This document shows, in pieces, positions 6,326 through 61,076 of a DNA stretch of 64,000 nt. Made by a program: the position numbers and the translations under genes. Source of the stretch: Acidovorax sp. DW039 (GTDB lineage Bacteria; Pseudomonadota; Gammaproteobacteria; Burkholderiales; Burkholderiaceae_C); NCBI RefSeq assembly GCF_037101375.1, contig NZ_AP029020.1, positions 1 to 64,000 of the forward strand, read 5' to 3'. The stretch's first letter is position 1; every line of letters begins with the position of its first letter. The notes below the pieces were generated by a model, which saw only the letters and a program-made list of their open reading frames with translations, was not told where the DNA came from and made no database searches.

Positions 6326-6327
6326 AT

Positions 6328-6549: not shown

Positions 6550-6662
6550 CGCTCTCCGGCGTGCCGCAGGCACGTCACTTCTTCCTCTCTTCCATCTGAT
6601 CGAATGGAAGCATGCACGGATGCATTCTTGAGCGGTTACCCAGTAGTAAGTAAGCCACTCAG

Positions 6663-6788: not shown

Positions 6789-6856
6789 GTTAGACCAACA
6801 GGCCTCCGCAGAAACTGAACTGCCCCCCAGAAGTTGGACAAACTTCAAGGGGTTAC

Positions 6857-7375: not shown

Positions 7376-7383
7376 TTGCCGGG

Positions 7384-8220: not shown

Positions 8221-8261
8221 TCGGCGGCAAGGCAACCGTCCAACTTCTGGGGGTCAGTTCA

Positions 8262-8278
8262 AAACCCGGGGCGATTCA
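8262..8278. mobile_element. Terminal remnant of the older IS3-family element
   Basis: AAACCCGGGGCGATTCA is nearly the same as the outer end of the other IS3 relic at 16553-16572 (read on the opposite strand). It is the continuation of the transposase tail at 6663-6788, displaced by the nested IS150-group insertion. Confidence 0.65.
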
Positions 8279-8366
8279 AGGTGAACGACCGGGGTGTTCA
8301 ATGTTCTGCGGGCTCAGGGAGGCAAGCCCTCCGACCTGTGTCGTTAAGCAAACAAAGGGAGGACGA

Positions 8367-10355: not shown

Positions 10356-10978
10356 GCAGCTAGGTCGGCCAAGAAGCGAACAGACTCGACGTGGCTGCAC
10401 GACATATGCGCTTGCGCAGCCAAACTTTGAAAGTCGACGATGTCAGTGGAAGTCCCTCTGAGCGAATGGCTACGCCATGAACAGGAAGGCGCGACCCAGA
10501 GGCCCTAGCAATCACAGGCCTGGGTCCCTGCACCGGCGCCTTCGTGGCGGAGACTCCGCGTTAGGGGTTGTTCTACTTGGCCGTAACCACTCTGTCGCTT
10601 TCCCGACTGTGCATGGCTTGTATTGGATTTCGTCTCTGGCGTCTGGAACGCACCTAGGGAGGAAAAGGCTGCCCGCTTCAAAACCTGAACCAGCGGCATG
10701 TATGCAGCGATTGCAGACTTTGACTACGTGTGGCGGTACTCACGCTCAATTGCATAAAGCGGTCGTTCAGGTGTGGCACTCGATTGCATTCATTGGCGCA
10801 GATGCACGGCAGACTACAAAGCGAGCGAAATCGGATGCCCGACGGCGACTAGCGGGGTGAAAACTACTGTTGCGAGACCTGATCCGTTTTGAGGGGTGAG
10901 CAGAGAAGCATTGCTATTGGATAGCAGCAAACCTGCGTGCCGCCGTGATGGTAAGCCCGGTGCCGTCGGCGAAACTCA
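10356..10978. other. No recognisable gene
   Basis: About 620 bp between the GmrSD-like gene and an RND pump fragment. One frame is open for 127 codons (10477-10860), but its composition and lack of a ribosome site do not support a gene. No IS ends or hairpins were recognised. Confidence 0.5.
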
Positions 10979-11597
10979 GTGACATCCTATCTCCGCAGGA
11001 ACTGCAACCACCGGCGGCGGACCGTCTTCCAGTGCCACTACCGATGTGAGCAGTGCCACGTTGACGGTAGAGCTCTCTGCGCGCGCCATCCCTGCCGCCC
11101 GGATTGCGGTGGGCCGCGGCGCCAATAGCGAAACGCTGGCCATCACGCTGGCTTGCGACGATGTCACTGCCTTGGCGATCGCGGCGTCGCAGGCCGAAGC
11201 ACAGTTGCGCACATTCAAAGGCATCGGCAACGTCACGTCGAGTGCAGCTTTGCAGCGGCCAGAAATTCAGATTCATCCGGATGCGGCGCGGGCCGCAGCG
11301 CTGGGCGTGACCACCGATAGTCTGGCCGATATAGTGCGCCTGGCCACCTATGGTGACTACTCCAATGCGCTTCCCAAACTCAATCTTTCGGAGCGTCAGA
11401 CTCCGGTGCGCGTTCGCATGGACCCGTCTGTTCGGGAAAATCTGAACGCGGTGTCGCAGTTGCGCGTACAGGGCAGCAATGGAACGGTCAATCTGGGTTC
11501 GGTCGCAGATATTTCGATCGGCAGTGCTACTGGGGCGGTCAATAAGCTCCTTTTAAGTGTTAGTGCCAGAGGCAAACTGATCATTAGGGGCGAATAG
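10979..11597 (+). pseudogene. Internal fragment of an RND efflux pump (AcrB/CzcA-like)
   Basis: About 200 residues of an RND inner-membrane pump, from the periplasmic porter/docking region only. The frame is open from about 10979, with GTATTGGG and DVSSATLTVEL. It includes FKGIGNVTSSAALQRPEIQI, AAALGVTTDSLADIVRLATY, ERQTPVRVRMD and GTVNLGSVADISIG. This matches the segment of RND pumps that precedes the second set of membrane helices. No transmembrane segments, N-terminus or C-terminal half are present, so it cannot transport. The sequence diverges after ISIGSATGAVN and stops at 11597, 79 bp from the end of the convergent ATPase gene. It is a deletion remnant; the original substrate is unknown. 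Confidence 0.75.
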
Positions 11598-31600: not shown

Positions 31601-34600
31601 CTGTCGCCGCTGCTGGTGTGGCTGGCCAACCGCGTTCCGTCTGGCCTGGGCAACCCAACACTGTCGGCACAGGACCAGGACCTGTTGCACGGCGTGGCGC
31701 GCGACACCTGGCGTTTGTTCGAGCGCTGTGTGGATGCCCACAACCACCACCTGCCGCCCGACAACCTCCAGACCGCCCCGTATGAAATGGTGGCGCACCG
31801 TACCTCGCCCACCAACATCGGGCTGTACCTGCTGAGCGCAAGTTGTGCGCGCCAGTTCGGCTGGATTGGCACGCTGGAGCTGCTCGACCGGCTCGAAGCC
31901 ACCCTCATGAGCCTGCAAGCCATGGAGCGGCACCGGGGCCACTTCCTGAACTGGTACGACACCGAAACCCTGCGGCCCCTGCACCCGCGTTATGTGTCCA
32001 CGGTGGACAGCGGCAATTTATGCGCGCACCTGGTGGCCGTGGCGCAGGCCTGCAGCGCGCTGGCGGCGCAGCCACTATCACCGCTGGCGGGTGCGCAGGC
32101 CATCTGCACCTCGCTGGCGCGGCTGCAGCGCCGGCTGGGCATCCACCACCCGGGCTTGCGCGGGATGCTTCCCTCGTCCGCCTTGAGCCGTCTGCTGGTA
32201 CTGCGTCTGCCGGACCCGTCGCACCAGCCGGAGGTCACGGCGTTTCGCGCGCTGCTGGCGCAGGCGCAGGACGAGCTGCGCAGCATTGCCCAGCCACGCC
32301 ACCCGGCCATCGTGCACAGCCCGCCCACGGCGCAGGACGAACTGCTGTGGCTGCTGGCCGACCACCTGGCCACACTGCACTCGGTGGACCGTGACCAGCA
32401 GGCCGCACACAACGGCGGCGCACCCGAGGCCACGCGGCGCCTCATGGGGCTGGCAGAGGCGCTGGATACCCTGGCCTGGCAGGCCGACTTCCGGTTTCTG
32501 TACCACCCCCGCCGGCACCTGTTGCACATTGGCTACCGGGTGGACGAGCAGCAGCTGGACACCTCGTTCTACGACTTGCTCGCGTCCGAATCGCGCACCA
32601 CCAGCCTGCTGGCCGTCGCCAAGGGCGACTTGCCCGTCAAGCACTGGGCGGCCCTGGGGCGGCCGTTCTTTGCCAGCGGCCACCATGCGGTGCTGCGCTC
32701 GTGGTCAGGATCGATGTTCGAGTACCTGATGCCCACGCTGGTCATGGACGAGCCGTATAACAGTGCCCTGGGCGAGGCAGGGCGGTCCGCCCTGCGTGAG
32801 CATGTGGCGCTGGTGCAGGCCTTGGGCAAAGACATGCCCTGGGGCATTTCAGAATGCGCCTACGCCGGGCGCGACCACACGCTGGCCTACCAGTACGCTC
32901 CGCAAGGCGTGCCCCGCTTGGCCTTGCGCCGCACGCCCGTGGGCGAGCTGGTGATTGCCCCCTATGCCACGGCGCTGGCCACCCAGGTGGATGCCCGTGC
33001 AGCCAGCGCCAACTTCCGCACGCTGGCCGCACTGTCGGCGCGGGGGCGCTACGGCTTTTACGATGCGCTGGACTTCACGCCCGAACGCCAGACCCATGGC
33101 GAGCGGCTCACGCTGGTCAACACCTACATGGCCCACCACCAGGGCATGACCATCGTGGCGCTGGCCAACGTGCTGCTGGGTGGCGTTGCGCAGCGCTGGG
33201 GCACGGCGCATGCCCGCATCGAAGCCGTGCTGCCGCTGCTGCAGGAGCGCGCCCCGCGCGAGCTGCCCACCTTGCAGGCCACACCGCCGCGCCTGCCGCT
33301 GCATGCGCGCCAACAAAAAACGCCCGACCATGTGCGCCCCGTCACCCCGGGCGCCCAGGTCTTGGAGCCCACACACCTGCTGGGCAACGGGCGCTACAGC
33401 GTTACCCTGCGCGCCAACGGGGCAGGGTGGAGCCGCTGGCGCCAGACGGGCATCACCCGCTGGCGCGACGATGCGCTGCGGGATGCACATGGCAGCTTTC
33501 TGTATGTGCGGCAGATGGGCTCCAGCGTGCCCGCGTCCGTCACCAGCCACCCCGCGCCCGATGCACGTGCGGTGTATGGCAGCATCTTCCACACCGACCG
33601 CGTGTGTTTTGACGCACTGTGGCCGGGGCTGCGCGTACACACCACCGTGTGGGTGAGCCCGGAAGACGACATTGAACTGCGCAAGGTGGTGGTGAGCAAC
33701 CTGGGTGATGAGGTGATCGAGCTGGAGCTGATCTCGGCCCTGGACATCACCCTGGCCACCCACGCGGCCGACGAGGCGCACCCCGCGTTCTCCAACCTTT
33801 TCGTCGCCGCCGACTGGCTGCCCGCACAGCAGGCGCTGCGGTTCATCCGAACGCCCCGCCTGCAGACCGAGACCACCCTGCAAGCCGCCCACTTTGTCGC
33901 AGATACCCAAGGGCACGTGCTGGGCCTGCGTTGCCAGACCGACCGGCAGCTCTGGCTGGGGCGCAACCATACGCCCGGCCAGCCGTTGGCTTTGCTCAGC
34001 CGCGTGCCTGAAGTGCCTGCATCGCTGGACACGGGCCTGGACCCTGTGGCGGCGCTGGGCGTGATGCTGCGCATTGCGCCCGTTGCGCAGGCCTGCGTCA
34101 CTTTTGCTACGGCGGCATCGCAAGACCCGGCCACGCTGCTGGCCATCATCGACAAGTACCGCCAACCCACCTATCTGGAGCGCGCTTCGGCCATGTCTGC
34201 CACGCTGGCCAGCATCCAGTGGGCGTCGCACCGCCCGCACCGCGACTACCTGCCCGCGCTGCAGGCATTGACCACGGCGCTGGTGTTCACGCTGTCCAAG
34301 GTCCACACCCCCTACCTCGGCGTGCTGACCGAGGCCCAGGCCGCCCACCCCGTGTGTGACGGGCGCGCGCTGTGGCAACTGGGCCTCTCAGGCGACCGAC
34401 CCATCGTGCTGGTGATGGCCGGATCGCCCCAGGGCATGGGCTTGCTGCGCACGCTGGCCCAGGCGCTGCGCGAATGGGCGCATGGCGGTGTGGCCTGCGA
34501 CCTGGTGGTGCTCAGCAGCGAATCGCACTCGTACCACATGCCCCTGCAGCGCGAGCTGACGCTGCTGCGCGAGCACCACGATGCCGACCTGGTCACGCAC

Positions 34601-41448: not shown

Positions 41449-43172
41449 CGGCTTCAGGCTGAGGCTGTGTGAAAACCCTCTGATTGGCCGATGCTGAACT
41501 CGGTAGAGTGCACAGACATACTGGACATAGAGGTCAATATGTCGAGATACATCGAAGGTCAGGACAGGCAGCAGGTCACGCTGCTGCCGGAGTGCCTGGA
41601 TGACTTCATTGCAGACAACAACACCGTTCGGATCGTAGACGTCTTCATCAGCGAGGTGGACTTGGTCGGCCTGGGTTTTGATGGAGCAAAGCCGGCTGCA
41701 ACGGGTCGGCCTTCGTATCACCCCTCTGTGCTGTTGAAGCTCTACCTGTACGGTTATCTCAATCGCATCCAATCCAGCCGCCGGCTGGAGTGCGAATGCC
41801 AGCGCAATATAGAGCTGATGTGGCTGACCGGCCGCCTCGCCCCTGACTTCAAGACCCTCGCGGACTTCCGCCGCGACAACGGTAAAGGCATTCGCAACGT
41901 CTGCCGTCGCTTCGTGATGCTGTGTCGCGAGTTGAAGCTGTTCACTGACGCCGTCGTGGCCATCGACGGCAGCAAGTTCAAGGCAGTCAACAACCGCGAC
42001 CGGAACTTCACGGGGGTGAAGATAGATCGATTCCAGGAACACATTGAACAAAGCATTCAGCGCTATCTGGATGGACTGGAGACGGCGGATCGCACACAGT
42101 CGGGCGTGCTACCAGCCAAGACTGAGCGGGTACATGAGAAGGTCAAGAGGTTGCGCCAGCGCATGCAGCAGCTTGAGCAGGTCAGGGATAAGCTGAAAAC
42201 TGAGCCCGACGGACAGCTGTCAGTGACAGACCCCGATGCACGCGCCATGGCCACCAGCCGTCCTGGCTCTGCGGTCATTGGCTACAACGTCCAGACGGTG
42301 GTCGATGCCAAGCACCACCTGATTGTCGCGCACGAGGTAACAAACGACAGCAGCGATAGATCGCAGTTGAGCAAGATGGCATTGGCTTCACGCGAAGCCA
42401 TGGGCCCCCCTGATCTACAAGTTCTCGCCGACCGGGGTTACTACAACGGTGTCGAACTGAAGGTCTGCCAGGACGAGAGGGTCGCAGCCTATGTACCCAA
42501 GCCGATGACCTCAAATGCAAAGGCTGCAGGTCGTTACGATAAGACCGACTTTATCTACATCGCCCGAGATGACGAATACCAATGCCCATCGGGGCAGCGA
42601 GCGATTCATCGCTTCACCACCGACGAGCGAGGTCTACAGATCTACATCTACTGGTCGAGTGCTTGCCCTGGTTGTTCGCAGAGGAATCAGTGCACGACGA
42701 GCAAGTACTGTCGCATCAGGCGCTGGGAGCACGAGGATGTGATGGACGCCGTACAGCAGCGACTTGATCGAGAGCCCGATGCCATGAAGGTGCGCCGGCG
42801 AACCATCGAACACGTCTTGGGGACGCTCAAACACTGGATGGGCTCAACGCACTTCCTGATCCGAGGCCTTCAGAACGTGGCAAGTGAGATGAGCCTTCAC
42901 GTTCTGGCGTACAACTTCAAACGCGTCCTCAGCATCCTTGGCTTTGAACGAACCAAGAAGGCCATGCAATTGTTGGGCACATGAGCGGCCCTTTGCAGCC
43001 GAAATAGGCGCGATTTAAAGCCTTGGGAGGGAACTGAGATCTATCTGACGGGTCGTCAACGCGGCCAATTCACAAAATCGCCAAGTCGCGATTCGAACAC
43101 GTCAAGGCTGCGATTCGAGCCCATGTCAGGCGAACTCTCTGTGGGTTTCCACACAGCCTCAGCCTAAAGCCG
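41449..43172 (+). mobile_element. IS1182-family element 1 (intact)
   Basis: Inverted repeats CGGCTTCAGGCTGAGGCTGT at the left and the near-identical complement CGGCTTTAGGCTGAGGCTGT inward from the right bound the element. One intact transposase gene. A truncated inverted copy of its 3' 500 bp is at 19411-19906. Confidence 0.85.
41539..42984 (+). CDS. IS1182-family transposase 1
   Basis: A 481-residue DDE transposase, start MSRYIEGQDRQQVTLLPECL at 41539 behind GAGGTCAAT. DUF772 N-terminal domain (TGRPSYHPSVLLKLYLYGYL, NRIQSSRRLE, LMWLTGRLAPDFKTLADFRR), first Asp in VAIDGSKFKAVN, then IGYNVQTVVDAKHHLIVAHE, second Asp in LADRGYYNG, Cys-rich region SACPGCSQRNQC, and the Glu region HVLGTLKHWMGSTHFL. 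The frame is intact. It differs clearly from the IS1182 transposase at 46937 (about the same length, scattered differences throughout). Confidence 0.9.
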   Translation: MSRYIEGQDRQQVTLLPECLDDFIADNNTVRIVDVFISEVDLVGLGFDGAKPAATGRPSYHPSVLLKLYLYGYLNRIQSSRRLECECQRNIELMWLTGRLAPDFKTLADFRRDNGKGIRNVCRRFVMLCRELKLFTDAVVAIDGSKFKAVNNRDRNFTGVKIDRFQEHIEQSIQRYLDGLETADRTQSGVLPAKTERVHEKVKRLRQRMQQLEQVRDKLKTEPDGQLSVTDPDARAMATSRPGSAVIGYNVQTVVDAKHHLIVAHEVTNDSSDRSQLSKMALASREAMGPPDLQVLADRGYYNGVELKVCQDERVAAYVPKPMTSNAKAAGRYDKTDFIYIARDDEYQCPSGQRAIHRFTTDERGLQIYIYWSSACPGCSQRNQCTTSKYCRIRRWEHEDVMDAVQQRLDREPDAMKVRRRTIEHVLGTLKHWMGSTHFLIRGLQNVASEMSLHVLAYNFKRVLSILGFERTKKAMQLLGT

Positions 43173-46858: not shown

Positions 46859-48544
46859 CGAGGCTGTGTGATAACCCCACCCACGATTGCAGCTCAAAAC
46901 TAAAATCATGGGCACCCGATTCAAGCGAGGTACTCCATGAAGCGATTCATCGAAGGCGAAGACCGGCAACAGGTCACCCTGCTGCCTGAGTGCCTGGACG
47001 ACTACATCGCGGAGGACAACCCAGTGCGGGTTGTCGATGTCTTTGTCGAAGAGCTGGATCTTCGGGCACTCGGCTTTGAAGGCGTTGATCCTGCGCTCAC
47101 GGGTCGGCCCGCATATCACCCTGGCGTACTGCTCAAACTGTACATCTACGGGTACTTGAACCGCATCCAGTCGAGCCGCCGCTTGGAGCGTGAAGCCCAG
47201 CGCAATGTCGAGCTGATGTGGCTGACCGGGCGCCTTGCGCCAGACTTCAAAACCATCGCCGACTTCCGTCGAAGCAGCGGCGCTGGCATCCGCAACGTCT
47301 GCAAGCGCTTCATCGCCATGTGCCGCCAGCTGAACTTGTTCTCGCAGGCCATCGTGGCGATCGATGGCAGCAAATTCAAGGCCGTCAACAGCCGCGACCG
47401 CAACTTCACACCCGGCAAGATCGAGGCTCGCCAGCAGCAGATCGAGCAGAGCATCCAGCGTTATCTGGACGCGCTGGAGACGGCCGACCGCACGCAGCCT
47501 ACAGAGGTTGAAGCCAAGGCAGAACGACTGCAAGAGAAGCTAAAAAAGTTGCGTGAGCAGATGCGGCAACTCGACGGTCTCAAGGAGCAATTGAAGACCC
47601 TGCCCGATGGCCAGATATCACTCACCGACCCCGATGCACGTTCGATGGCCACCCAGGCCAAGGGATCGGGCCTGGTGGGCTACAACGTGCAGACCGCAGT
47701 TGATGCCAAGCACCACCTGATCGTTGCGCACGAGGTCACGAACGTTGACAATGACCGTGCACAGTTGCACCACATGGCCTGCGCTGCAGACCAGGCCATG
47801 GGAGGCGAGAACCTGCAGGCCTTTGCCGATCGAGGCTACTTCAGTGGTCCACAGCTCAAGGCCTGCGAAGACGCTGGCATCACGACCTTCGTGCCCAAGC
47901 CGATGACGTCCAACGCGAAGGCCGAAGGGCGCTTCGACAAGGCCGACTTCATCTACATCGCCAAGGATGACGAGTACCAGTGCCCTGCAGGCGAGCGTGC
48001 GATCCATCGCTTCAAAACAATCGAGAAGGGCCTGAACCTGAGCGTCTATTGGTCAAGTGCCTGCCCAAAGTGTCTGCTCAAATCCCAGTGCACGACCAGT
48101 AGCAACCGGCGCATTCGCCGATGGGAGCACGAAGAGGTTCTGGAGCGCGTTCAGCAACGATTGGACAGTAACCCCGATGCCATGACGTTGCGAAGGTCAA
48201 CCGTGGAGCACGTCTTCGGCACGCTCAAACATTGGATGGGCTCGACGCACTTCCTGATGAAGACCCTCAAGTACGTGGGCACAGAGATGAGCCTTCATGT
48301 GCTGGCCTACAACCTCAAGCGGGTGATGGGCGTGATGGGTATCGCGCAGATGATGCAGGCGATGCGGATGGTCAAGGCGTGATGCCTTAGTTGGCATTTA
48401 GCAGCTGACAAAGGCTTCGGGAGTGCGTCAAAAGGCTTCAGGTGCGCCAGAAACGGCACTACAGCCATGCTGGTGAGGAATGCGGTGCAAGGCTGTGGTA
48501 CAGGGCTGGACCACATGCTCGTTGAGCGTTTCCACACAGCCTCG
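46859..48544 (+). mobile_element. IS1182-family element 2 (intact, 1686 bp)
   Basis: Inverted repeats CGAGGCTGTGTGATAAC (left) and CGAGGCTGTGTGGAAAC (inward from the right). It carries one intact transposase. It differs in sequence from element 1 but shares the core repeat AGGCTGTGTG. Confidence 0.85.
46937..48382 (+). CDS. IS1182-family transposase 2
   Basis: A 481-residue transposase: MKRFIEGEDRQQVTLLPECL, TGRPAYHPGVLLKLYIYGYL, LMWLTGRLAPDFKTIADFRR, first Asp in VAIDGSKFKAVNSRDRNF, LVGYNVQTAVDAKHHLIVAH, second Asp in FADRGYFSGPQL, zinc-like SACPKCLLKSQC and Glu region HVFGTLKHWMGSTHFLMKTL. The same layout as transposase 1 but distinct throughout, so these are two separate IS1182 species. 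The frame is intact. Ribosome site GAGG lies ahead of the ATG. Confidence 0.9.
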   Translation: MKRFIEGEDRQQVTLLPECLDDYIAEDNPVRVVDVFVEELDLRALGFEGVDPALTGRPAYHPGVLLKLYIYGYLNRIQSSRRLEREAQRNVELMWLTGRLAPDFKTIADFRRSSGAGIRNVCKRFIAMCRQLNLFSQAIVAIDGSKFKAVNSRDRNFTPGKIEARQQQIEQSIQRYLDALETADRTQPTEVEAKAERLQEKLKKLREQMRQLDGLKEQLKTLPDGQISLTDPDARSMATQAKGSGLVGYNVQTAVDAKHHLIVAHEVTNVDNDRAQLHHMACAADQAMGGENLQAFADRGYFSGPQLKACEDAGITTFVPKPMTSNAKAEGRFDKADFIYIAKDDEYQCPAGERAIHRFKTIEKGLNLSVYWSSACPKCLLKSQCTTSSNRRIRRWEHEEVLERVQQRLDSNPDAMTLRRSTVEHVFGTLKHWMGSTHFLMKTLKYVGTEMSLHVLAYNLKRVMGVMGIAQMMQAMRMVKA

Positions 48545-48691: not shown

Positions 48692-50367
48692 TGTTGATTT
48701 CCATGCAAACCTAACCCACCGGGGGCTAGTGGGGGTGCGGATAAAAACTTGGACTGGTTTTATGTCGCAAGTCCAAGACTCACCCGGTATTCGATCGGGC
48801 TGAGGGCCCCCAGGGAGATCTTGATCCGCTTCTCGTTGTACCAACGGATGTAGTCGTCGACCACCCCAATGAACTGTTTGATCGTGACGCTCTTCCAGTC
48901 CCGAGGATAGAACAGCTCATTCTTCAGCCTACCGAAGAAGCCCTCGCACGCCGCGTTGTCAGGCGAGCAGGCTTTGCGGGACATCGAACGGGTAAGGTCC
49001 GCGTCGCTCATTCTCGATAGCCAGCCGGGCCAGCGGTAGTGTCCTCCGCGGTCGGAGTGGACCACAGGTCGATCGTTGGTCTCTGCCACCGTCTCGATAG
49101 CAGCATCGAGCATCGTGTTGACTAGCTCAGCATCCGGGCTCGTGCCAATGGTCCAGCTGACCACCATCCCGTCGAAGCAATCGATGATCGGTGACAGGTA
49201 GACCTTGCCTGCGGGGATCTGGAATTCCGTGATGTCTGTGAGCCACTTCTCGTTTGGCGCAGCAGCCTGGAAGTCACGGTTGATGATGTTCTCTGGTGCC
49301 GGGCTGATCTCGCCAAGGTAAGAGGCATACCGCCGCCGCTTGGGCTTTGCAACGACCAAGCTCTCTTGCTTCATCAGCCGCTGCACTACCTTCTCGGAGA
49401 TCGGGCCTTGTTCTCTGGCCAGTGAGGCTTGCAGCCTGCGGTAGCCGTAGCAGCGGTGATTGGACTCGAAGATCTCGGTGATGGATTGGCGCACCTTCAC
49501 GTACTTGTCTCCGATTGCCGCGCGGGCCCGATGGTAGAAGTATGAGCTGCGCGCAAGACCCAACTGTGCAGGGAGCTCTGGCAGACCATAGTGCTCCCTG
49601 AGGGCGTCAATCAGCAGTGTCTTCTCCCGGTTGGACAGGAGTTGCAGATCGACGCCCAGGCCTTTTTTTAGCAGTTCATTGGCCTTGTTCAAGAGGTCCT
49701 GCTCAAGGCGCAGTTGCCTGACTTCGTGGCGCAGTATTTCAACCTGGCGCTTGAGCTCTTCGCGCTCTTGCGCCTGCGGTGATCGATCGGTGTGTTTCAT
49801 TGATGCGGGTGCCTCACGCCCCAGAAGCTGGTTCTTCCAGTTGTACAACGTTGGTCGGCACACGCCGAGCCTGTCGGCAACCGCCTGTGCACTTTCCTGC
49901 CGGGTGCAAAGCTCCATCACTCCCGCTTGCTTCAAGCTCTCGGGATATCTTCGCTGACCCACACTGCCGACAACGGCCATCCTGGCCTCAGGGAATGCTT
50001 CGCGCACCCACTTAGTCAGCGTTCCACGCCCTGGATAGCCCAGGGCCCTCATGGTGGCTGCGATGCATCGATCATGTGTTAGGTAGTGCTGTGTGGCCGC
50101 CGCCTTCTGGGCCTGCGAGAACTTGGGCTCACGCCCCGCATAGCCTTTAGGCAAGTCCTGGCGCTGCTGATATTCCCGATACCAACCTTTCAATGAATTC
50201 TTGGTCGGGTACCCCAACTGCCTGATCGTCGGGCTGGTGCGTTTGCCCAGCTTGATGTAGAGCTCAACTGCTCGGATTCGGTCTTCGTAGGAATACATGA
50301 ACTACCTTTTAGTAGTCCAAGTTTTCGTCCGCACCCCCAGTGGGTCACTTCTGCGTGGAAATCAACA
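48692..50367 (-). mobile_element. IS3-family element, copy B (1676 bp), inverted relative to copy A
   Basis: TGTTGATTTCCATGC at 48692 and TGTTGATTTCCACGC inward from 50367 are the same ends as copy A. Flanks AGTGCG and TGGAGT give no target duplication. It lacks the 10 extra bases seen inside the left end of copy A. Confidence 0.9.
48760..50298 (-). CDS. IS3-family transposase (copy B)
   Basis: The encoded 512-residue protein reads the same as that of copy A at 19986-21524, with all DDE residues (WLTDITEF, VHSDRGGHY, CEGFFGRLKNE). The frame is intact. The A7 tract and continuous frame are the same. Near-identity of the two copies means a recent duplication or gene conversion, and makes homologous inversion of the intervening 27 kb possible. 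Confidence 0.9.
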   Translation of the reverse strand: MYSYEDRIRAVELYIKLGKRTSPTIRQLGYPTKNSLKGWYREYQQRQDLPKGYAGREPKFSQAQKAAATQHYLTHDRCIAATMRALGYPGRGTLTKWVREAFPEARMAVVGSVGQRRYPESLKQAGVMELCTRQESAQAVADRLGVCRPTLYNWKNQLLGREAPASMKHTDRSPQAQEREELKRQVEILRHEVRQLRLEQDLLNKANELLKKGLGVDLQLLSNREKTLLIDALREHYGLPELPAQLGLARSSYFYHRARAAIGDKYVKVRQSITEIFESNHRCYGYRRLQASLAREQGPISEKVVQRLMKQESLVVAKPKRRRYASYLGEISPAPENIINRDFQAAAPNEKWLTDITEFQIPAGKVYLSPIIDCFDGMVVSWTIGTSPDAELVNTMLDAAIETVAETNDRPVVHSDRGGHYRWPGWLSRMSDADLTRSMSRKACSPDNAACEGFFGRLKNELFYPRDWKSVTIKQFIGVVDDYIRWYNEKRIKISLGALSPIEYRVSLGLAT

Positions 50368-50660: not shown

Positions 50661-51217
50661 CTTGGAGGTAACCACGATGGTCGCTTTTTTTGCTGCCCTT
50701 GACTCTACGAGCTGACCGCTATACCGCTGTCCTGCAAGCACGGTGAAACCACTGCCGACAACGGTCACTTCAGTAGCGCATGGCGCAGGGTGATGCAGGT
50801 GATTTCAATGTCGAAGACGTAGTACATAAAGATCCACGGTTTGCTCGAAGCAATCGAGATTGGCAATTTTTCTGTTTACCTTTGATCCTGCGTCTCTTAC
50901 ATTGGCCGCTTTTTTTGCACCTGAATTGGTCAAAAAGCTGAGATGACATTTCAACGCACAGCGCCATGCAACCACTATCTGCCCATACATCTTTCCCCGC
51001 GAACAATTCCTTCTCTGAAACTGGTGCGGGCTGCGTGCGGATGAGATTACTGGTTAAAAAAGCGGCTGCAGATGTTTTCTGCCCATGGAGTTGCTCGGAT
51101 TGGGGAAAGCAGTGCCAATCGACCTCATTGGGGGGCACGACGCTCAGCCGCGCTGCTCTGGAACTGTTATCTCAAGTTGCGTACATCTTGGCACACGCTC
51201 GTTGCGAGAAAAATCGT
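50661..51217. other. No gene recognised
   Basis: About 560 bp between the integrase relic and the IPTL-CTERM gene. Sequence is locally AT-rich around 50850-50960. Open frames on both strands lack family features. The promoter of the surface-protein pair must lie here, but it was not identified. Confidence 0.4.
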
Positions 51218-51937
51218 ATGCCTTTAATCCTTCGCCAGTGTGCCTTTGTGCTGCTGATCTACTGCTTTAGTGCCTTGCCTAGTTTGGCTCAGATTTCGGT
51301 GCCTGCCGGAGCCCGGATAGACGTTCCTGCCGGGTCAACTCTCGATGCTGCCTGTGGCGGGGTGGATATACAGGGGCAACTTAACGTGACGTCGGGACAG
51401 CTAAGGACTGATGGTGACCTAGTGATTGGATCGTCCGGTATGTTGAATGGCAACGATGGCGTGTTGAGGGTGGGCGGCAATTTTCGCAGCACTGGGTCCT
51501 TCAATGCTGGCAACAGTACGGTCGAGCTGATAGACGGTTGCGTAGGCAACACCACGCAAATCTCGGGCAACTTAGTGTTTCAGAACCTCGTGCTCAGTAG
51601 CGGCAGTGGACGTATTTTCGCCATCCAGGCTGGCAGCCAAATCACTGTACTGGGTACTCTCACCTTGCAGGGAGTCTCAGGGCAAAACCTTCAGCTCGTC
51701 TCTGCGACTGGTGGCGCTGTCGTCGTCAATCTTGGGCCTTCGGCTAACGTTGTCAGAAATTTCGTCAGCGTGGCCAGCAACGTTCAGATCGGTACTGCGG
51801 CAGCAACGGCCAAGAGCATTCCCACATTGAGCGAATATGGCGTGCTGATTCTAGGCTCGCTGCTGGCTCTCGTTGCTTGGGCGCTGCAGTCCTCGCCGCT
51901 TGCCAACCGTGTTTCCAAAAAGAAAGTGTGTTTATGA
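51218..51937 (+). CDS. IPTL-CTERM exported surface protein
   Basis: A 239-residue protein from ATG 51218 (upstream in-frame sequence is not protein-like). Signal peptide ([17 protein letters not shown]) and a repetitive beta-rich middle ([57 protein letters not shown]), suggesting a beta-helix. The C-terminus has the IPTL-CTERM sorting signal, [20 protein letters not shown], followed by Arg/Lys (RVSKKKV). Known: IPTL-CTERM proteins are processed by an exosortase (XrtH type); none is in this window. Its TGA overlaps the ATG of the collagen-like gene, so the two are translationally coupled and probably function together on the surface. Confidence 0.75.
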
Positions 51938-52887
51938 GAAGCGAAAAGATGGTTCGGGTGCATCCAACTCTAAATTATCTGGTGCGTCCTGTAGTATTGC
52001 TGTCGGTGGCGGGAGGGCTGCTGTCGGCGGTGCATGCGGCCGATATATCGGCCACCGTGCCTCCCAACGGCGGATTTGTGGTCAAGAGTTCTGGTGGTAC
52101 GCAGGAGCGCTTCCGTGTTGAGGACAATGGTGAGGTGCGCATCCCTGGTCTGAGCAGCAGTGGCGCAGGCTCCACGGTGGTGTGCGCGGATACCCTCACC
52201 GGACGCCTGGGCCCCTGCGCTACGGGTGTGGGAATGGGTAGCGCGGGCCCAGCTGGGCCCGCAGGGCCGCAAGGTCCTGCTGGTCCTCAGGGGTTACCGG
52301 GAGCAGCAGGTGCGCAGGGTCCAGCTGGACCGCAAGGTATCCAGGGCGTGCAAGGTCCTGTTGGGCCCAAGGGCGATACGGGGTCCGTAGGACCACAAGG
52401 CCCAATAGGTCCTCAGGGACTGGCCGGTGCTGGTGGTGGGAATGCTCTGGTAGCGACTCACCTCAGCGGTAGCGGTATCGATCAAATGGACGATAGCAGG
52501 AAGAAGTTTATTACCTGGGACAGATATCGGTATGCAGGTCCAGGCGTGGGCCCCTCATTGGCGCCGGACAATATCAACTTTCAGTTCCCAGATGCTGGGG
52601 ATTACTTTATCCAGTATTACATCAACTTCCATCCGAGCTCTGATGGAAGCCTCACGCACGATACAAGCAGCTGTAACGGAAATATCGCATTAGATGGATC
52701 GACTGTTCCAAACAATGAAATGGTGGGATTCAATCCAGGTAATAACGGCACAATACAAGCGATGGGTATGGTGACGATGGCTGCAGGTGCTAAAGTCAGC
52801 CTGATGCTCGAATGTATCGTTGGCACGAATCAAATAAAGTATCTCAGCATATCTCGTGCGATGTTGACGGTCATGCGCATCCAGTAG
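51934..52887 (+). CDS. Collagen-like secreted protein with C-terminal globular domain
   Basis: A 317-residue protein starting [10 protein letters not shown]; its ATGA overlaps the stop of the IPTL-CTERM gene. A signal-like helix ([16 protein letters not shown]) and a short head with two Cys (VVCADTL and GPCATG) come first. Residues 105-167 are 21 uninterrupted Gly-X-Y triplets ([20 protein letters not shown] at the start, GPKGDT and [12 protein letters not shown] later), i.e. a triple-helix stalk. The C-terminal 140 residues ([45 protein letters not shown]) look like a C1q/BclA-type trimeric head. It is probably a trimeric surface fibre. The in-phase repeats could vary in length by recombination. 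No cell-wall anchor is seen. Confidence 0.8.
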
Positions 52888-54216: not shown

Positions 54217-57200
54217 ATGAAGATTGACATCATCAGCAGCGACGGCATCCACGCTTCGGAGAAAGATGCACTGGAGCGCATGCGGCAGGCGTTCAACGCG
54301 TCTGAGTTCAGCCTGAAATGGCAAGGGTACGCCGGCTTTATGATGATGGACACGACCTACCGGGATCGCGAGATCGATCTGGTGTTGCTGACCCATGATC
54401 GGCTTCTGCTCATCGAGCTCAAGAAGTGGCGCGGAAAGATCGAGTCGATGCAGGACCATTGGCTGCGCGACGGCGACGACATGGGGCGCTCTCCAGTCAA
54501 AGTGCTCGCCGACAAGTGGAAGATTCTCTCGTCCAAGATCCGCAACCGCCTCACCGAGCCGGCCAGGTCCGTTTACATCGACTACCGCGTTGTGATGTGC
54601 GGAACAGCAGATTTCTCAGCGGTCCCGGATGATGAAAAGGCCTTCGTCCTGACGCTTGACCAGTTCCTGAAGATCGCCAAGCAGGGCGGCTATCGACAGG
54701 AGTTTGGCAACCCCTGCGCTGGTAAGCCCAATCAGCATCTGCAGACCTTCACGCAGTTCTTCCGTGGCCGGGACTTCAAGCCCGCGGGCTTTTCGTTCGG
54801 CAACTTCCACATCGTGGGCGAGGCGACCTTTCCGCATCCGCAGGGCCTGTACAAGGAATACAAGTCGGTCAAGAAGGATGACCAGCGGCACGAAGCCTTG
54901 CTGCGGCGCTGGGACTTCTCCGCGCTTACCGGCATCGCCGACACCCTTGATGAGCGGGCGCGCATCGCGCTGCGCGAGCACAAGGTGCTCGGGTTCATCC
55001 ATGAGCAGTGCGAGCAACTGGATGGTGTGGTGCTGCAACCGCTGTCCCATCCCACCCGTGACGACATTGACGCGGACTTCTGCGAACTCTACCGACTGCC
55101 CTCGCGCCAACTGCGGCTCAACGAGTTCGTGCACCGCCACGGGCAGGACTTGTCGTTCGCGGACCGCCTGTCCTTGATCAAGGTGCTGCTGTCGCACTTT
55201 GCGGAACTGCACGATGCCGGTGTGGCGCATCGCGATGTCAGTGACCACAGTCTGTGGCTGGAGCGGCCGTCGAAGGTGTCCATCTCCGGCTTCCTGACCG
55301 CCTACTTTCCCGAGGCGGGAACGGTCGGGCCGCTGCGAGACAACCTGCGTGCGGGCAAGGCCGTGCTACCCGAGGATTCCGAACTGGGCGAGGGCGAACC
55401 GAGCGACGCGTTTCAGGGCGACGTCTACCTGCTCGGCGCGGCCGTACACCACGTGCTGTTCCTGCGCCTACCGCGTCAGATGGAAGGCTTGTTCCTATGG
55501 GAGCCTCCGGAGGGGACCGACTGCGATCCCGGCCTGGCCGCCTGGTTCGCCCGAACCATGGATTGGGTTCCATCGGCGCGCTTTGCGAACGCCCGCGTCA
55601 TGCTGGACGCCTTGAACGCTCTGCCAGTCGGCCGATCGTCAAGGGCCGAGGTGGATCTGCACGCCTTCGAGGCATACCGCAGCGAAGTCATGCCGATGGT
55701 GGCCTATCCACTTGAGGAGAACATCAAGCAGGGCCACAGCCATCTCTACCGCTCGACCGTGGGCGGACGCCCAGTGTCCGTGAAAGTCTGGTACGGACGC
55801 CGGCCCGATCCGAAGCGCCCCGAGGAGACGCATGCGCTGAAGATGTTTCTGGACAAGGCCCGCCTTGTCCAGAGTCAGCCCTGCGCCTCGCTGGCGCCAG
55901 TGGTGGACTTCGGAATATCGGACGCGGGTACCTTCCTGGTCCAACACTGGGTGGAGGGGCAGGGTCTGCTGGAAGCCGGTGCAACCCGTCCAGCGGCGCG
56001 CGAGATCCTCGCGCTGTGTCACCAACTGGTCAAGGCCACGCTGCATCTGCATGGGCTGGATCTGCAACACGGCGACCTTCACCCTGGAAATGTCCTGATC
56101 GACGGTGCAGACGTGCGCTTCATCGACGCCATCGACATGGTGCAGGGTGGCGCGGCCGGTCCTCACAACCCAGCCTATGCGCCCGTGGACCACGAGTCAG
56201 TGTCGCCCGAGCAGCGCGATTGCTATGCCGTGGCAAAGATGTGTTGGGAACTGCTGGACGGTGTTGCGTCCTGGGAGGGGATTGATGCAATCCCCTTGCG
56301 TGAGGAGATCCAGCGCTGCCTGGACAGAGAACTGCGTGTGCATGCGCTCGACCGCATCGACGACGCTGTCGCACGGTTGCTTCATCCGCCATTGCTCGAC
56401 ACCGGGCCGCGGCTGGTCGTTCAGATGCGCCAACTCACCTCGCGCACGCCGTTGGCAGGCGACAACGGTGCGTTCCATGTGGGGGTGGCGATTGAGCGGG
56501 TACGCAATAGCCGGCAACAGCCCCACGTGGAAGTGTCGCTGTCGGGAGTGCGTCGGCGCCTGCTGATCTTGCTCAAGCCTACAACGCTCGACTTTGCGTC
56601 GCTGCGCGTGCACGACATGCCACACAGCCAGTTCGTGCGCATGGCCACTCAGGCGACCGCGACGCTGAAAGCAGAAATCCATTTCGAGCCCGCGCTGGCC
56701 GACGATGCCAGCGACTTGCTCGCGGCGCTGGAGGCGATAGCGGAGGTCCGCGAGGCCATCGACGCCGTCCGCTCCCAGATCCTCGACCTGGACGCGCCCG
56801 ACGAGGAGGTTGACGCCGGCGAAGAGGATCTGGGCGTGCCACGCGCCGCCCCTCGGACCGAGGCGTTGTGGCGAGCTATCCTTGATGCCGAAGAGGCTAC
56901 GCTGCCCGAAGTCGAGATCGCCGCGCCGGTGGCGCGAGAGATGGGGCGCCGCGACAAGCTGCGCATTCCGTACCGCAAGGAAGGCGAGGCGCTCGACTAC
57001 GAATCCGACGCGAAGGTCGAGGCCCTGCAGGAGACCAATGGCGAACTGGTGAAGGTCGGCGACATCGACATGCGCGAGACCACCCAGGCCATCCTGGTGA
57101 TCGACAACCCGCGCATCCGCATGCAGACCGGCGTGGGCGATCGCATCAAGCTGCGCAGCCAGCAGGATCTGTCCTCGTTCCGCCGCCGGCATCTTGCCGT

Positions 57201-59097
57201 CACCCGCATCCTGGGACGCGAATCGGTACTGCCCGACCTTGTCGACTATTTCGATCCGGTGCAATGCCCGCTGCCACAAACCCTGCAGGCCTCGCCCACC
57301 GACGCAGAGCTGGATGCCTACAACCGTCACAACGAGTCGGGGCAGTTGGTGTTCTCCCTCAATCGGCAACAGCGGGATGCCTTTGCCAAGTTGTGGTCTC
57401 AGGGGCCGCTGAGCCTGCTGCAGGGGCCCCCGGGCACGGGCAAGACGTCCTTCATCGCATCTTTCATCCACTACGCGATGTCCCACGGCGCACAGAGCAT
57501 CCTGCTGGCAAGCCAGTCGCACGAGGCGGTGAACAACGCGGCCGAGAAGGTCATCGAACTGTGCCAGCGCACTGACTTGCCGCTGGACGTAGTGCGCTTC
57601 GGTGCCGAGGGCATGGTGTCCGAGCAACTGCGGCCGCACCATTCGGCGTCCATCCTGCAGGCCTACCGCGATCTGTTCCGATCCGAGATGCGCCAGCGCG
57701 TTGTGGCGCTGAGTCGCAACCTGGGCTTGCCCAGCGCATTCGTGGAGGATTGGTTCGACATCGATTTCCACCTCGGACGCCTCTTGAGAGACATCGAGCG
57801 GCTGGCGCGCAAGCGCTCGGAGGCCAATGCGACGGGAGAGGACATCGCGTCTGCGGCCGCGCGCATCGGGCAACGCACCGAACGTCTGCGCACCTTGGCC
57901 CGCGAGAAATTCGACGTGCACGAGGTGGCCGATCCAGCCGAGACGATTGCCCAGCTACGGCGCGCCGCGATGGAGGCCCACGGCGTGACCTCGGCCGATG
58001 CCGTGTCGAAGCTCGATCAGGTCATGGCGATGGCCCAGGAATGGGTAGACCGGTTGGGCACGCTGCGCGGCAATTTCGAGGAATTTCTCGCTAAGACGCG
58101 CTCTCTAGTTTGCGGCACTTGCGTGGGCCTGGGGCGCTCCCAGTTCGGGGTGGCCCGCAATCGCTACGACTGGGTGATCGTCGACGAGGCGGCCCGGGCC
58201 ACGCCGGGAGAACTGGCCGTCGCGATCCAGTCAGGGCGCCGCGTGTTGCTGGTCGGGGACCACCGGCAGCTGCCGCCGCTCTACACCGAGCCGCTGGTGC
58301 GCCGGATCTCCGCGGACCTGCAGTGGCTGGACCGATCCGTGCTCACCCGCAGCGACTTCGAGCGTGCCTTCGAGTCCGACTACGGCCGCCAAGTCGGTGC
58401 GACCCTGCAGACCCAGTACCGCATGGCGCCGCCGATCGGCGAACTGGTGTCTGCCTGTTTCTACCCGGTGCCGCTGCAGCCCGGACGCGGTGATCCGCCG
58501 CCATGGTTCGATCAGTTGCCCGAACGTATCGGCGCGGTTGTGACCTGGGTCGATACGTCGGACGCCGGGCGCGAATCCCACGAACGGCCCAGGACGCCGG
58601 GCTTTGACAACCTCTATGAGGCGCGAGAGATACTGGATGTGCTGCGCTCGATCTGCACCGGCGGACCCTTCGTGCAGTCCCTGATGGACCACTGCGGCGA
58701 GGACGAGAAGCCCATCGGGGTCATCTGCATGTACGCCGCGCAGGAGCGCCTGCTGCAACGCATGCTCAGCGAACAGGACTGGGCCACGGGCTACCGGCGC
58801 TTGATCAAGATCGACACCGTCGACAGCTACCAGGGCAAGGAGAACCGGATCATCATCGTATCCACCACGCGCAACAACGGCCGCTACGAGCAGGGTTTCC
58901 TGAGCAGCAACGAGCGGGTGAATGTGGCGATCTCGCGCGCCATGGATCGCCTGGTGATCGTCGGCGCAGCCCGCATGTGGCGCGATCGCCACCAGCGCTC
59001 CCCCATGGGGCGGGTCCTCGCACACATCGAGGCGCATCGCGACGACAAGGCGTTCACGATGGTCCAGGCATCCGCCTTGGAAGGGAGTCCGGCATGA
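54217..59097 (+). CDS. NERD nuclease-pseudokinase-kinase-SF1 helicase fusion (candidate defence protein)
   Basis: A 1626-residue multidomain protein. NERD (nuclease-related) domain at residues 15-130 with the PD-(D/E)xK residues Asp54 and Glu67-x-Lys69 (LLLIELKKW). First kinase-like domain about 220-470: HRD (338-340) is present, but the Asn five residues later is Ser and the DFG Asp is replaced (ISGF), so it is probably a pseudokinase. Second kinase about 495-720: VSVKVW (Lys523), HGDLHPGN (Asp620, Asn625) and FIDAID (Asp637), apparently active. UPF1-like SF1 helicase 1040-1600: GPPGTGKTS (1070-1078), VIVDEAARA (1321-1329), GDHRQLPP, VDSYQGKEN (1535-1543), VAISRA. It overlaps the next gene by ATGA. 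Related kinase-helicase fusions occur in the Mokosh defence system, but this arrangement differs. Confidence 0.8.
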   Translation: MKIDIISSDGIHASEKDALERMRQAFNASEFSLKWQGYAGFMMMDTTYRDREIDLVLLTHDRLLLIELKKWRGKIESMQDHWLRDGDDMGRSPVKVLADKWKILSSKIRNRLTEPARSVYIDYRVVMCGTADFSAVPDDEKAFVLTLDQFLKIAKQGGYRQEFGNPCAGKPNQHLQTFTQFFRGRDFKPAGFSFGNFHIVGEATFPHPQGLYKEYKSVKKDDQRHEALLRRWDFSALTGIADTLDERARIALREHKVLGFIHEQCEQLDGVVLQPLSHPTRDDIDADFCELYRLPSRQLRLNEFVHRHGQDLSFADRLSLIKVLLSHFAELHDAGVAHRDVSDHSLWLERPSKVSISGFLTAYFPEAGTVGPLRDNLRAGKAVLPEDSELGEGEPSDAFQGDVYLLGAAVHHVLFLRLPRQMEGLFLWEPPEGTDCDPGLAAWFARTMDWVPSARFANARVMLDALNALPVGRSSRAEVDLHAFEAYRSEVMPMVAYPLEENIKQGHSHLYRSTVGGRPVSVKVWYGRRPDPKRPEETHALKMFLDKARLVQSQPCASLAPVVDFGISDAGTFLVQHWVEGQGLLEAGATRPAAREILALCHQLVKATLHLHGLDLQHGDLHPGNVLIDGADVRFIDAIDMVQGGAAGPHNPAYAPVDHESVSPEQRDCYAVAKMCWELLDGVASWEGIDAIPLREEIQRCLDRELRVHALDRIDDAVARLLHPPLLDTGPRLVVQMRQLTSRTPLAGDNGAFHVGVAIERVRNSRQQPHVEVSLSGVRRRLLILLKPTTLDFASLRVHDMPHSQFVRMATQATATLKAEIHFEPALADDASDLLAALEAIAEVREAIDAVRSQILDLDAPDEEVDAGEEDLGVPRAAPRTEALWRAILDAEEATLPEVEIAAPVAREMGRRDKLRIPYRKEGEALDYESDAKVEALQETNGELVKVGDIDMRETTQAILVIDNPRIRMQTGVGDRIKLRSQQDLSSFRRRHLAVTRILGRESVLPDLVDYFDPVQCPLPQTLQASPTDAELDAYNRHNESGQLVFSLNRQQRDAFAKLWSQGPLSLLQGPPGTGKTSFIASFIHYAMSHGAQSILLASQSHEAVNNAAEKVIELCQRTDLPLDVVRFGAEGMVSEQLRPHHSASILQAYRDLFRSEMRQRVVALSRNLGLPSAFVEDWFDIDFHLGRLLRDIERLARKRSEANATGEDIASAAARIGQRTERLRTLAREKFDVHEVADPAETIAQLRRAAMEAHGVTSADAVSKLDQVMAMAQEWVDRLGTLRGNFEEFLAKTRSLVCGTCVGLGRSQFGVARNRYDWVIVDEAARATPGELAVAIQSGRRVLLVGDHRQLPPLYTEPLVRRISADLQWLDRSVLTRSDFERAFESDYGRQVGATLQTQYRMAPPIGELVSACFYPVPLQPGRGDPPPWFDQLPERIGAVVTWVDTSDAGRESHERPRTPGFDNLYEAREILDVLRSICTGGPFVQSLMDHCGEDEKPIGVICMYAAQERLLQRMLSEQDWATGYRRLIKIDTVDSYQGKENRIIIVSTTRNNGRYEQGFLSSNERVNVAISRAMDRLVIVGAARMWRDRHQRSPMGRVLAHIEAHRDDKAFTMVQASALEGSPA

Positions 59098-60665
59098 TCA
59101 CGCTCGAGGAACAACAGCTGCGCGAACACCTCGCGGTCGATGAGATCACGTTTGCCATTCCCGCGCAGAGCTTCGCGATCTCGTGTGCCATCAGTGCCGA
59201 AGAAGCGCTGCCGGTTGTAACGGAGTTCGCCCTGCGCATCGCTTACATCTGCGGTACGCTCAGTCCCGCGCAGATCCAGGATTTCTTTGGTTTCTCGAAG
59301 AAGGAGACCGATGCAGTGCTCAAGTCCTTGCTTGATGAGCGGCTACTGCAATGGAACGACGAGCACCTGGAGCTCACTACTTACGCGCTGGCGCGCTTCC
59401 AGGACAGCTCGGACAATCTGCCGCGCTTCTTCAAAATCCAGGACTGGAGCGCCGAAGTGGTGTTCGACCTGATCAGCTTCAGCCCGGCGGGCCGGCCGAG
59501 CCGTCTGAAGCGGGTGCGTTCGCAGATCGAGCTGGCGACACGCAACCTGGACAAGCAGTCACGCACGCGGCAATACGCGGAGCAGTCTTTCCAGCAGAAC
59601 TTTCGCCAGATCTGTACCAGGGAGAAGGCTGAGATCTACAAGATCAGCGCCATTGACGCCGGCGAGCGCTTCAGCATTCCCCTGCCGTGTACGTTCCACC
59701 TCGATCTGAGCGGGCAGACGAGCATCCGACGCAACATCGACGATGAGAGCTTCGGCAGCCGGCTGGAGATCGCCGAGGCGATCACCGACGCGCTGGCCAG
59801 CCAGGAGCGGGGCGACAACGAGCGCTTGCGAGACTTCATCCAGACCTTCGATGACACGCTGCTACAGCGCTACGTGACGGGGGATGCGTTCGATCTTCGC
59901 CGTTACGCCCAAGAGGTCCATCTGACGCGGTTCGTGCGCACTGACGACGACCGCGTCACCCCGGTGCTGGGCGCACTGTACCTTCCGCGCAATGCCGCGT
60001 TGCTGCTTGAGCGCATTCAGGCCGCGATGGCACAGCCGGAAGCACTGGTTGAGACTGAGCCACTTGCCACCGAAGGGGCCGAATCCGACTCCAAAGACTC
60101 TGCAGAAACGACGCATCCCGCGCAGGGGGAGGCTCTGTGGTGGGCCCCGCAGTCGCCGCTGTGGGCACGCACACGCAGTGCGCGCGACCTTGCACAGAAG
60201 ATCGAAAAGCTGCTGCTCTCTCAAGGTGGCGAACGACCCTCGGCCGGACTGCAGGTTGTGGTGCCGACTGCACGTCGTCCACCACGTGAGCGCTTGGCCA
60301 TTTACCAAGACCAATTCAACCGCCTGCTGGCGGCGGATGTGGTGTTGATGGGGGGGAGCGTGGAACTGTTGATCGTGCCTGATACGCTGGTGTGTGCGAT
60401 GTTCCATTTCAATCTGGCCCACAACGCGACGGCTGTTCCGATCGGCTTCATTTCCTCTGCGCCCAAACATATTGCATCCGCGGGGGCTCTGGTCTCGGCA
60501 CGAATGAGCGCCCGGCCAGACGGCGTCACCGCGGCTCGCGAGGAAGGTGGTGCGGCGCCAATAGAAAATCTGGTGCAATTGTTGGCACGCTTGACGCCGT
60601 CGAGCGAGGTGGACGTCGATGGTCCTGCAAAGCGGGGCCGTGCTCGACTGACGCTGGAGAGGTAG
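59094..60665 (+). CDS. Partner of the NERD-kinase-helicase, winged-helix N-terminus, otherwise unknown
   Basis: A 523-residue protein whose ATG overlaps the upstream stop (ATGA, preceded by GGAAGGGAG), so the two are made together. Residues 40-105 look like a winged helix (ICGTLSPAQIQDFFGFSKKE, TDAVLKSLLDERLL). The middle (RLKRVRSQIELATRNLDKQS, IPLPCTFHLDLSGQTSIRRN) and the C-terminal half (GLQVVVPTARRPPRERLAIY, LLAADVVLMGGSVELLIVPD) match no family I recognise, with an acidic low-complexity linker near 330. No HKD, HNH or other nuclease motif was seen, unlike the phospholipase-D-type partner in Mokosh. It is probably an adaptor, sensor or unrecognised effector. Confidence 0.7.
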   Translation: MITLEEQQLREHLAVDEITFAIPAQSFAISCAISAEEALPVVTEFALRIAYICGTLSPAQIQDFFGFSKKETDAVLKSLLDERLLQWNDEHLELTTYALARFQDSSDNLPRFFKIQDWSAEVVFDLISFSPAGRPSRLKRVRSQIELATRNLDKQSRTRQYAEQSFQQNFRQICTREKAEIYKISAIDAGERFSIPLPCTFHLDLSGQTSIRRNIDDESFGSRLEIAEAITDALASQERGDNERLRDFIQTFDDTLLQRYVTGDAFDLRRYAQEVHLTRFVRTDDDRVTPVLGALYLPRNAALLLERIQAAMAQPEALVETEPLATEGAESDSKDSAETTHPAQGEALWWAPQSPLWARTRSARDLAQKIEKLLLSQGGERPSAGLQVVVPTARRPPRERLAIYQDQFNRLLAADVVLMGGSVELLIVPDTLVCAMFHFNLAHNATAVPIGFISSAPKHIASAGALVSARMSARPDGVTAAREEGGAAPIENLVQLLARLTPSSEVDVDGPAKRGRARLTLER

Positions 60666-60686: not shown

Positions 60687-61076
60687 ATGCCCATGCACCT
60701 CGAACTCACCGAACTGAGCATCACCCTAGCCAGTCAGGGTTACGCGACATGGCGCGCCATCGACACCAAGCCGGTCGCGCAGGTTATGCATGAAGTCGCG
60801 TCCCATCTGGGCGGGGAGCCGCTGAGCGGGCGCGGCGGCAAGACGTTCGAAACACTCAAGGTGTTGGATGCGTCTAAAGCGCCGGTCCGATCTCTCTGCC
60901 GTCTATCCGGAGTGGATACGCAACCTTGGTATATCGACGAGGCACACCTTACACACCGCCACGCTACATCACCCTTGGTTGCGACGCCGATGCCGCAGAT
61001 GGGTGGCCGCCGACGCAGATGTAGCTTTGCGCATGGGGCTGTGCAATGCCATGGCGCCGTTCAGGGCGCGATGTAG
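60687..61076 (+). pseudogene. Broken third gene of the NERD operon or unrelated dioxygenase-like remnant
   Basis: An ATG 21 bp after the previous stop opens MPMHLELTELSITLASQGYA, LGGEPLSGRGGKTFETLKVL and RLSGVDTQPWYIDEAHLT. The protein character then moves to another frame (TPPRYITLGCDADAADGW), so a frameshift near 60950 is likely; the frame as it stands ends at 61076 in low-quality sequence. The W-x-x-D-x-AHL-TPPRY pattern is a little like 2-oxoglutarate/Fe(II) dioxygenases (W-H-x-D), with the His replaced by Tyr; this is weak. It could equally be an unknown small accessory gene. Confidence 0.4.

Follow-up and report, generated by a model that had tools for sequence, protein, structure and literature searches.

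The window analysed here, positions 1-64000 of the contig NZ_AP029020.1 (364,914 bases) of Acidovorax sp. DW039, carries two adjoining genes, mkoA and mkoB, that almost certainly constitute Mokosh type I, a known anti-phage defence system. A preliminary description of this DNA had reported two open reading frames (ORFs) joined by an ATGA overlap, and both ORFs, their lengths and the overlap were confirmed at the coordinates given in Table 1. The founding paper on Mokosh is reportedly that of Millman et al. 2022. The definitions of the Mokosh types used in this work were taken from the PADLOC models and from passages of the published papers.

Table 1. Positions in the window of mkoA and mkoB, of the domains assigned to their products and of the transposase ORFs upstream of them.
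Feature	Position	Strand	Length	Details
mkoA	54217-59097	+	1626 amino acids	ORF without internal stop
mkoB	59094-60665	+	523 amino acids	start ATG overlaps the TGA of mkoA (ATGA)
MkoA, NERD nuclease domain, PD-(D/E)xK-type	54259-54597	+		residues 15-127; EID 52-54, ELK 67-69
MkoA, first kinase-like domain (probable pseudokinase)	54829-55626	+		residues ~205-470, boundaries approximate; from alignments of seven MkoA and of PglW/MAD6-like proteins
MkoA, second kinase domain	55705-56316	+		residues ~497-700; VKVW 522, HGDLHPGN 618, FID 635
MkoA, Upf1-like SF1 helicase	57358-58971	+		residues 1048-1585; GPPGTGKT 1070, DEAA 1323, QYRM 1400, SYQGKE 1537
MkoB, N-terminal winged-helix-like region	59142-59489	+		residues 17-132; profile-profile match to PLD-type MkoB
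Insertion sequence transposase ORFs upstream of the cassette	48760-50298; 46937-48382; 41491-42984

The PADLOC matches obtained in this work include two MkoA models and two MkoB models. The window MkoA matched PDLC03921 with 1698.9 bits (residues 1-1622 against positions 1-1604 of the 1607 of the profile) and the window MkoB matched PDLC03923 with 407.7 bits (residues 11-475 against positions 6-441 of 454). Since the PDLC03921 match runs nearly end to end, the MkoA model itself takes in the NERD part. The preliminary description had proposed a possible undescribed defence system and had considered Mokosh only in its form with a PLD-type nuclease, so that the NERD-bearing Mokosh type I was overlooked. 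The proposal of a defence system was supported by the PADLOC models and by the defence neighbours of some relatives. The proposal of an undescribed one was refuted: PADLOC assigns both genes, in the expected order, to the known MkoA and MkoB, an outcome that the preliminary description had itself named as refuting, and NERD (PF08378) is already given for Mokosh type I in the table, the part seen, of a 2023 review (PMC10952713).

The window pair has MkoA, an adjacent MkoB and NERD, as defined for type I. The table of PMC10952713 also gives a PLD-like domain for types I and II, which the window pair does not carry; since the same table gives NERD for type I, the PLD-like domain was not read as required of every member. 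Mokosh type II, in the passages available of PMC10740426, consists of a single MkoC protein with a helicase and a C-terminal nuclease, whereas the window has two genes and no PLD motif. The MkoC model PDLC03924 matched MkoA with 107.4 bits, its best stretch (residues 1313-1611) lying within the helicase, which is related to that of MkoC.

The Pfam matches and motifs bore out the arrangement proposed earlier, of NERD, two kinase-like domains and an SF1 helicase in one chain. NERD was matched with 37.3 bits against a cut-off of 22.1. Active kinases are expected to carry a set of motifs, including a catalytic Asn and DFG, by which the two kinase-like domains were judged. The first keeps AHRD at residues 337-340, but the catalytic Asn that should follow is missing, and SGF stands at residue 357 in place of DFG. 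The second gave a sub-threshold Pfam Pkinase match (residues 573-637, 22.4 bits against a cut-off of 31.7), and its region was also matched by PD-T4-6 kinase models of PADLOC. Judged by these motifs the first domain is probably a pseudokinase and the second probably active, which makes the earlier reading of a pseudokinase followed by a kinase a fair one. The helicase was matched by AAA_11 (residues 1048-1356, 139.4 bits) and AAA_12 (residues 1377-1585, 130.1 bits), both above cut-off, and its best PDB matches were NAM7/UPF1 followed by Sen1 and IGHMBP2. MkoA is classed among the SF1_Upf1 helicases in the part consulted of PMC10925250.

Alignment of the window MkoA with six full-length homologues (74, 65, 33, 31, 35 and 30% identity) revealed that the helicase motifs, together with the NERD residues D54, E67 and K69 and the second-kinase residues H618-G619-D620, N625 and D637, were invariant in 7 of 7 sequences. 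The contig fragment L002, L004 (mkoA in two frames), the remnant L006, L035 (in-frame stop reported) and L008-L016 (at most the end of MkoA present) were left out of this alignment.

MkoB of the window gave no Pfam family above cut-off. PDLC03923 matched all 15 MkoB rows of one alignment at E 0.01 and four further partners, and weak winged-helix model matches were found at the N-terminus of MkoB in some relatives. No PLD was found in the Pfam and PDB searches of MkoB, and none was present among the 14 Pfam families found, up to E 5, for 15 MkoB members. The PLD motif HxKx4D was absent from 15 MkoB and 7 MkoA sequences. The predicted strand order had raised the suspicion that the C-terminal half of MkoB might have a degenerate PLD fold. 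This found no support; comparison of profiles between this half and the PLD halves of PLD-type MkoB gave a best E of 0.034 and a probability of 1.5.

Comparison of gene pairs indicated that Mokosh type I seems to have two branches, each with its nuclease in a different gene, and this is what is new here. The second MkoA model, PDLC03920, at E 1e-100 or better matched 11 of 398 genomes of the phylum, six with a NERD-branch protein and five without. Two loci found through this model, L081 and L082, have MkoA proteins of 1165 and 1199 amino acids with no NERD, and their MkoB carries a PLDc_2 domain (49.1 and 54.0 bits, respectively, against a cut-off of 27). In a hand-picked table of 26 pairs, NERD was found in MkoA in 15/15 pairs of the NERD branch and HxKx4D in MkoB in 0/15, while in the PLD branch NERD was found in 0/11 and at least one HxKx4D in 11/11; both together occurred in 0/26 pairs. 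The spacing of the two genes in the tabulated pairs ranged from an 8-base overlap to a 2-base gap, with no internal stops. Clustering at 80% identity reduced the 15 NERD pairs to 11 and the 11 PLD pairs to 10.

The NERD-branch rows comprised the window itself, five loci to which MkoB had led (L003, L005, L063, L064 and L066) and nine to which MkoA had led (L033, L034, L037, L038, L067, L068 and L093-L095). In the PLD branch, MkoA had led to two rows (L081 and L082), and the other nine (L084-L092) were plasmid records taken from 15 listed out of 48 that matched; these nine were fetched with a PLD-type MkoB query and are PLD-bearing by construction, so that only their missing NERD is independent. 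Excluded from the table were L065 (an unannotated near-copy of L066), L072 (contig end), L083 and L074 (no partner found), and L035 and L069 (partner present, untabulated). In the scoring of the 26 proteins, for which the profile was built only from PglW/MAD6-like rows, the NERD branch scored E 6.6e-9 or better; three rows of the PLD branch at E 1.1-3.1 were counted as no match, and the missing NERD of L088 is weak evidence, its MkoA being annotated short (804 amino acids). A stricter E.D...ELK pattern was present in 14 of the 15 NERD-branch proteins, the exception being L063, which has LDL for E.D and keeps the D and ELK.

The window pair has the same genes, order, length, domains including NERD and short overlap as the NERD branch (PDLC03921 and PDLC03923), and no structural difference from that branch was found; MkoA identity runs from 98.5% (fragment L002) and 74% (L003) to about 30%. 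With the PLD branch (PDLC03920 and PDLC03922) it shares a MkoA with kinase and Upf1-like helicase, a two-gene operon and a homologous MkoB N-terminus, but in that branch all 11 MkoA are without NERD and all 11 MkoB have HxKx4D. Profile-profile comparison showed that only about the first 115 MkoB residues are detectably common to both branches (E 5.3e-5, probability 66.8); the N-terminal halves alone gave E 2.4e-6 and a probability of 88.9. Taken together, we lean towards regarding type I as two systems on one helicase-kinase chassis, with either NERD fused to MkoA or PLD in MkoB and never both, in which the winged-helix-like start of MkoB would be the constant adaptor; this split was drawn from the pair table and the profile comparison, not from a tree. 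No statement of such NERD/PLD exclusivity was found in the short passages of the Mokosh papers on which the literature comparison was based.

We asked in how many relatives the two genes stay together. A MkoB-like gene follows MkoA in 11/11 NERD-branch loci found through MkoA for which downstream sequence was available (L033, L034, L035, L037, L038, L067, L068, L069 and L093-L095), and in 2/4 such loci of the other branch. The two misses, L083 and L074, showed no partner with the MkoB profile in the available bases. Homologues mostly without the partner gene, named in the preliminary description as an outcome contrary to its proposal, were thus not what was found. In L083 (positions 4585-11388, reverse strand) an ORF of 2267 amino acids has a second-branch MkoA as its second half, while its first ~1070 residues were left without explanation.

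The distribution of MkoA is patchy. Scores above 1000 bits were obtained in 6/398 genomes of the phylum, that of the window included. At E 0.001, where no more than two first-look candidates were scored in each genome, the MkoA model matched 334/398 phylum genomes and also 13/14 control genomes, most of the listed matches being short and in the kinase or helicase part. At E 1e-50 it matched 2/47 genomes of the genus, that of the window and one at 36% identity. The MkoB model matched 9/299 genomes of the family; three of these matches were weak (E 1.4e-7 or worse), and one (G033) is apparently on the same contig as the remnant L006. In the class it matched 17/369 genomes, of which only that of the window scored better than E 5.5e-7. 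When part of the Enterobacter MkoA gene was searched at the DNA level against E. coli genomes, 2/5426 matched, each over 125 bases. Among named phage records, a tblastn match to MkoA covering at least 80% was found in 3/50,697, and two scans of viral contigs revealed no relatives.

Some relatives are incomplete or interrupted. L002, from another assembly, is a near-identical partial copy (98.5% over the last 482 MkoA residues and 90% over MkoB). In the Enterobacter cloacae DSM 26481 chromosome (L004:4117-9004) MkoA lies in two overlapping frames while MkoB is open. In an Aquabacterium metagenome-assembled genome (L006:7246-9799) only MkoA residues 1-276 and 1315-1622 and MkoB residues 1-140 and 398-523 are left, which would be either a decayed copy or an assembly error; the contig is apparently identical with L012/L016.

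Analysis of the neighbourhoods revealed known defence genes beside single relatives. In Polaromonas sp. JS666 plasmid 1 (L063:1-15386) a BREX (bacteriophage exclusion) type 1 locus contains the MkoA-MkoB pair, with pglX on one side of it and pglZ on the other. A Mesorhizobium relative adjoins nucleotidyltransferase, ThiF, Mov34 and SAVED genes, a set which we take to be a CBASS (cyclic oligonucleotide-based anti-phage signalling system) locus. Avs1c lies near a Chimaeribacter relative, genes coding for TIR and caspase-family proteins lie about 5 kb from a Rhodopseudomonas relative, and integrases were found near relatives in Pseudomonas records. Several other relatives had no defence gene among their listed neighbours.

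At the DNA level nothing close turned up in 72,556 plasmid records; at the protein level, 140 of these records contain an MkoA-like match that spans at least 80% of the query. Such plasmid-borne relatives, together with the insertion sequence (IS) elements upstream of the window copy, would suit a pair that derives from Mokosh but has come to maintain plasmids or transposons, interfering with competing mobile elements instead of phages; the relatives that adjoin BREX, CBASS and Avs1 genes argue against such a role, which we consider unlikely. It is less probable still that insertion sequences have merely carried along a copy that is decayed or silent: decayed relatives do exist (L006 with parts of both genes, L004 with its split MkoA), but in the window neither reading frame is broken, the motifs that do not vary among the aligned relatives are all present, and a near-identical partial copy occurs in a second assembly (L002).

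Alignment of the N-terminal part of MkoA revealed that residues ~1-690 are collinear with eight other ORFs, of which five are PglW (PADLOC, 1181.7-1357.4 bits) and two best match MAD6. The eighth, L055:1411-4875, has a PglW match over residues 33-679 and a SspF match over residues 802-1102; it reads as a fusion of a NERD-kinase unit with a protein of the Ssp/Dnd type. NERD, pseudokinase and kinase occur in that order in PglW and in a subset of DndF according to the passages seen of PMC12839542, in whose text the word Mokosh is absent. The collinear alignment and the PglW and MAD6 matches indicate that the control-and-nuclease unit of MkoA is common to several systems and that in MkoA a Upf1-like helicase is added to it. 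PglW (BREX type 2, or Pgl), MAD6 (MADS) and the NERD-bearing DndF/SspF-like proteins share all or part of the N-terminal NERD-pseudokinase-kinase module, but the matches of their models are confined to the first part of MkoA and, where a cut-off is given, fall far short of it. There was no full-length PglW match: the NCBIfam PglW model NF033442 gave 63.6 bits against a cut-off of 990, PDLC02512 gave 76.2 bits over residues 12-355 only, and the MAD6 equivalog NF047741 gave 113.7 bits against a cut-off of 460. Neither pglX nor pglZ was among 20 further window ORFs in a Pfam scan, no genome search having been aimed at them. The least probable alternative, an offshoot of BREX type 2/Pgl in which a PglW-like MkoA had its C-terminal sensory half replaced by a helicase and acts as a PglW-style backup effector, would draw on this collinear module, its occurrence in PglW and DndF and the one relative within a BREX locus, but is very improbable in view of the NCBIfam PglW score, a PADLOC MkoA score more than 20 times the PglW score and the other relatives, which have no BREX gene among their listed neighbours.

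In the window the surroundings are IS-rich, as had been described, with IS transposases close to the cassette. The size of the contig fits the plasmid location proposed earlier, without amounting to proof of it. The restriction gene that had been placed together with the cassette is of GmrSD type, lies about 44 kb off and is no local neighbour; this gene, at 8301-10355, is type IV restriction-like. The GC content is 62-66% in the cassette block, 54-59% in the IS-rich stretch upstream and 64-68% downstream; since high GC continues downstream, it is no mark of the cassette alone. An ORF directly downstream of mkoB (60687-61076) was considered as a third gene of the system and rejected, having no counterpart in the other loci compared and no Pfam or PADLOC match; it is possibly a gene fragment. 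Elsewhere the window contains an ORF of 2897 amino acids (28622-37315) and two adjoining ORFs (50966-52887), one with an IPTL-CTERM motif and the other with a collagen-like repeat.

On this evidence the pair is very probably an apparently intact Mokosh type I of the branch with NERD at the MkoA N-terminus. Several points weigh against this explanation. Phage protection by this copy is a prediction from its genes; several of the fetched relatives have no defence gene among their listed neighbours. In the C-terminal part of MkoB (~390 residues) no fold was detected, the best PDB match of the profile being at E 0.12, and the AlphaFold2 model of MkoB, made from a five-row alignment, had a mean pLDDT (predicted local distance difference test) of 39.7, too poor for use; a nuclease could be hidden in this part. 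The partner gene, described earlier as of unknown fold, was identified as MkoB by PADLOC. The sources also disagree, Mokosh being said to degrade viral transcripts in the passages seen of PMC11291487 and its mechanism being given as unknown in those of PMC12926258.

The mechanism that we propose is tentative. The Upf1-like helicase of MkoA would engage phage RNA, an RNA-DNA hybrid or single-stranded DNA, with the winged-helix-like N-terminus of MkoB as an adaptor aiding the helicase. The pseudokinase would hold the second kinase in check, the kinase pair acting as a switch, and NERD would be licensed either by movement that ATP drives or by the second kinase domain through phosphorylation. NERD would then cut nucleic acid, by which the phage nucleic acid would be destroyed or the cell killed before phage release. 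The substrate, the trigger, the order of these events, the role of the kinases and whether the response is abortive are what we infer here.

Being one more intact example of a system already known, the cassette closes the false lead of a new one, and its lasting interest is the apparent nuclease swap within Mokosh type I. If this swap is true, descriptions of Mokosh that make it an RNA degrader of the PLD type leave the NERD branch uncovered. This branch would then cut in the PD-(D/E)xK manner, with DNA or RNA-DNA hybrids as possible substrates, and would be governed by the NERD-pseudokinase-kinase control unit that PglW also has. One helicase-kinase core with two unrelated nucleases in different positions would mean that the sensing and cutting parts could be separated by simple mutants, and the contrast between the branches would make what Mokosh recognises and what it cuts directly testable.

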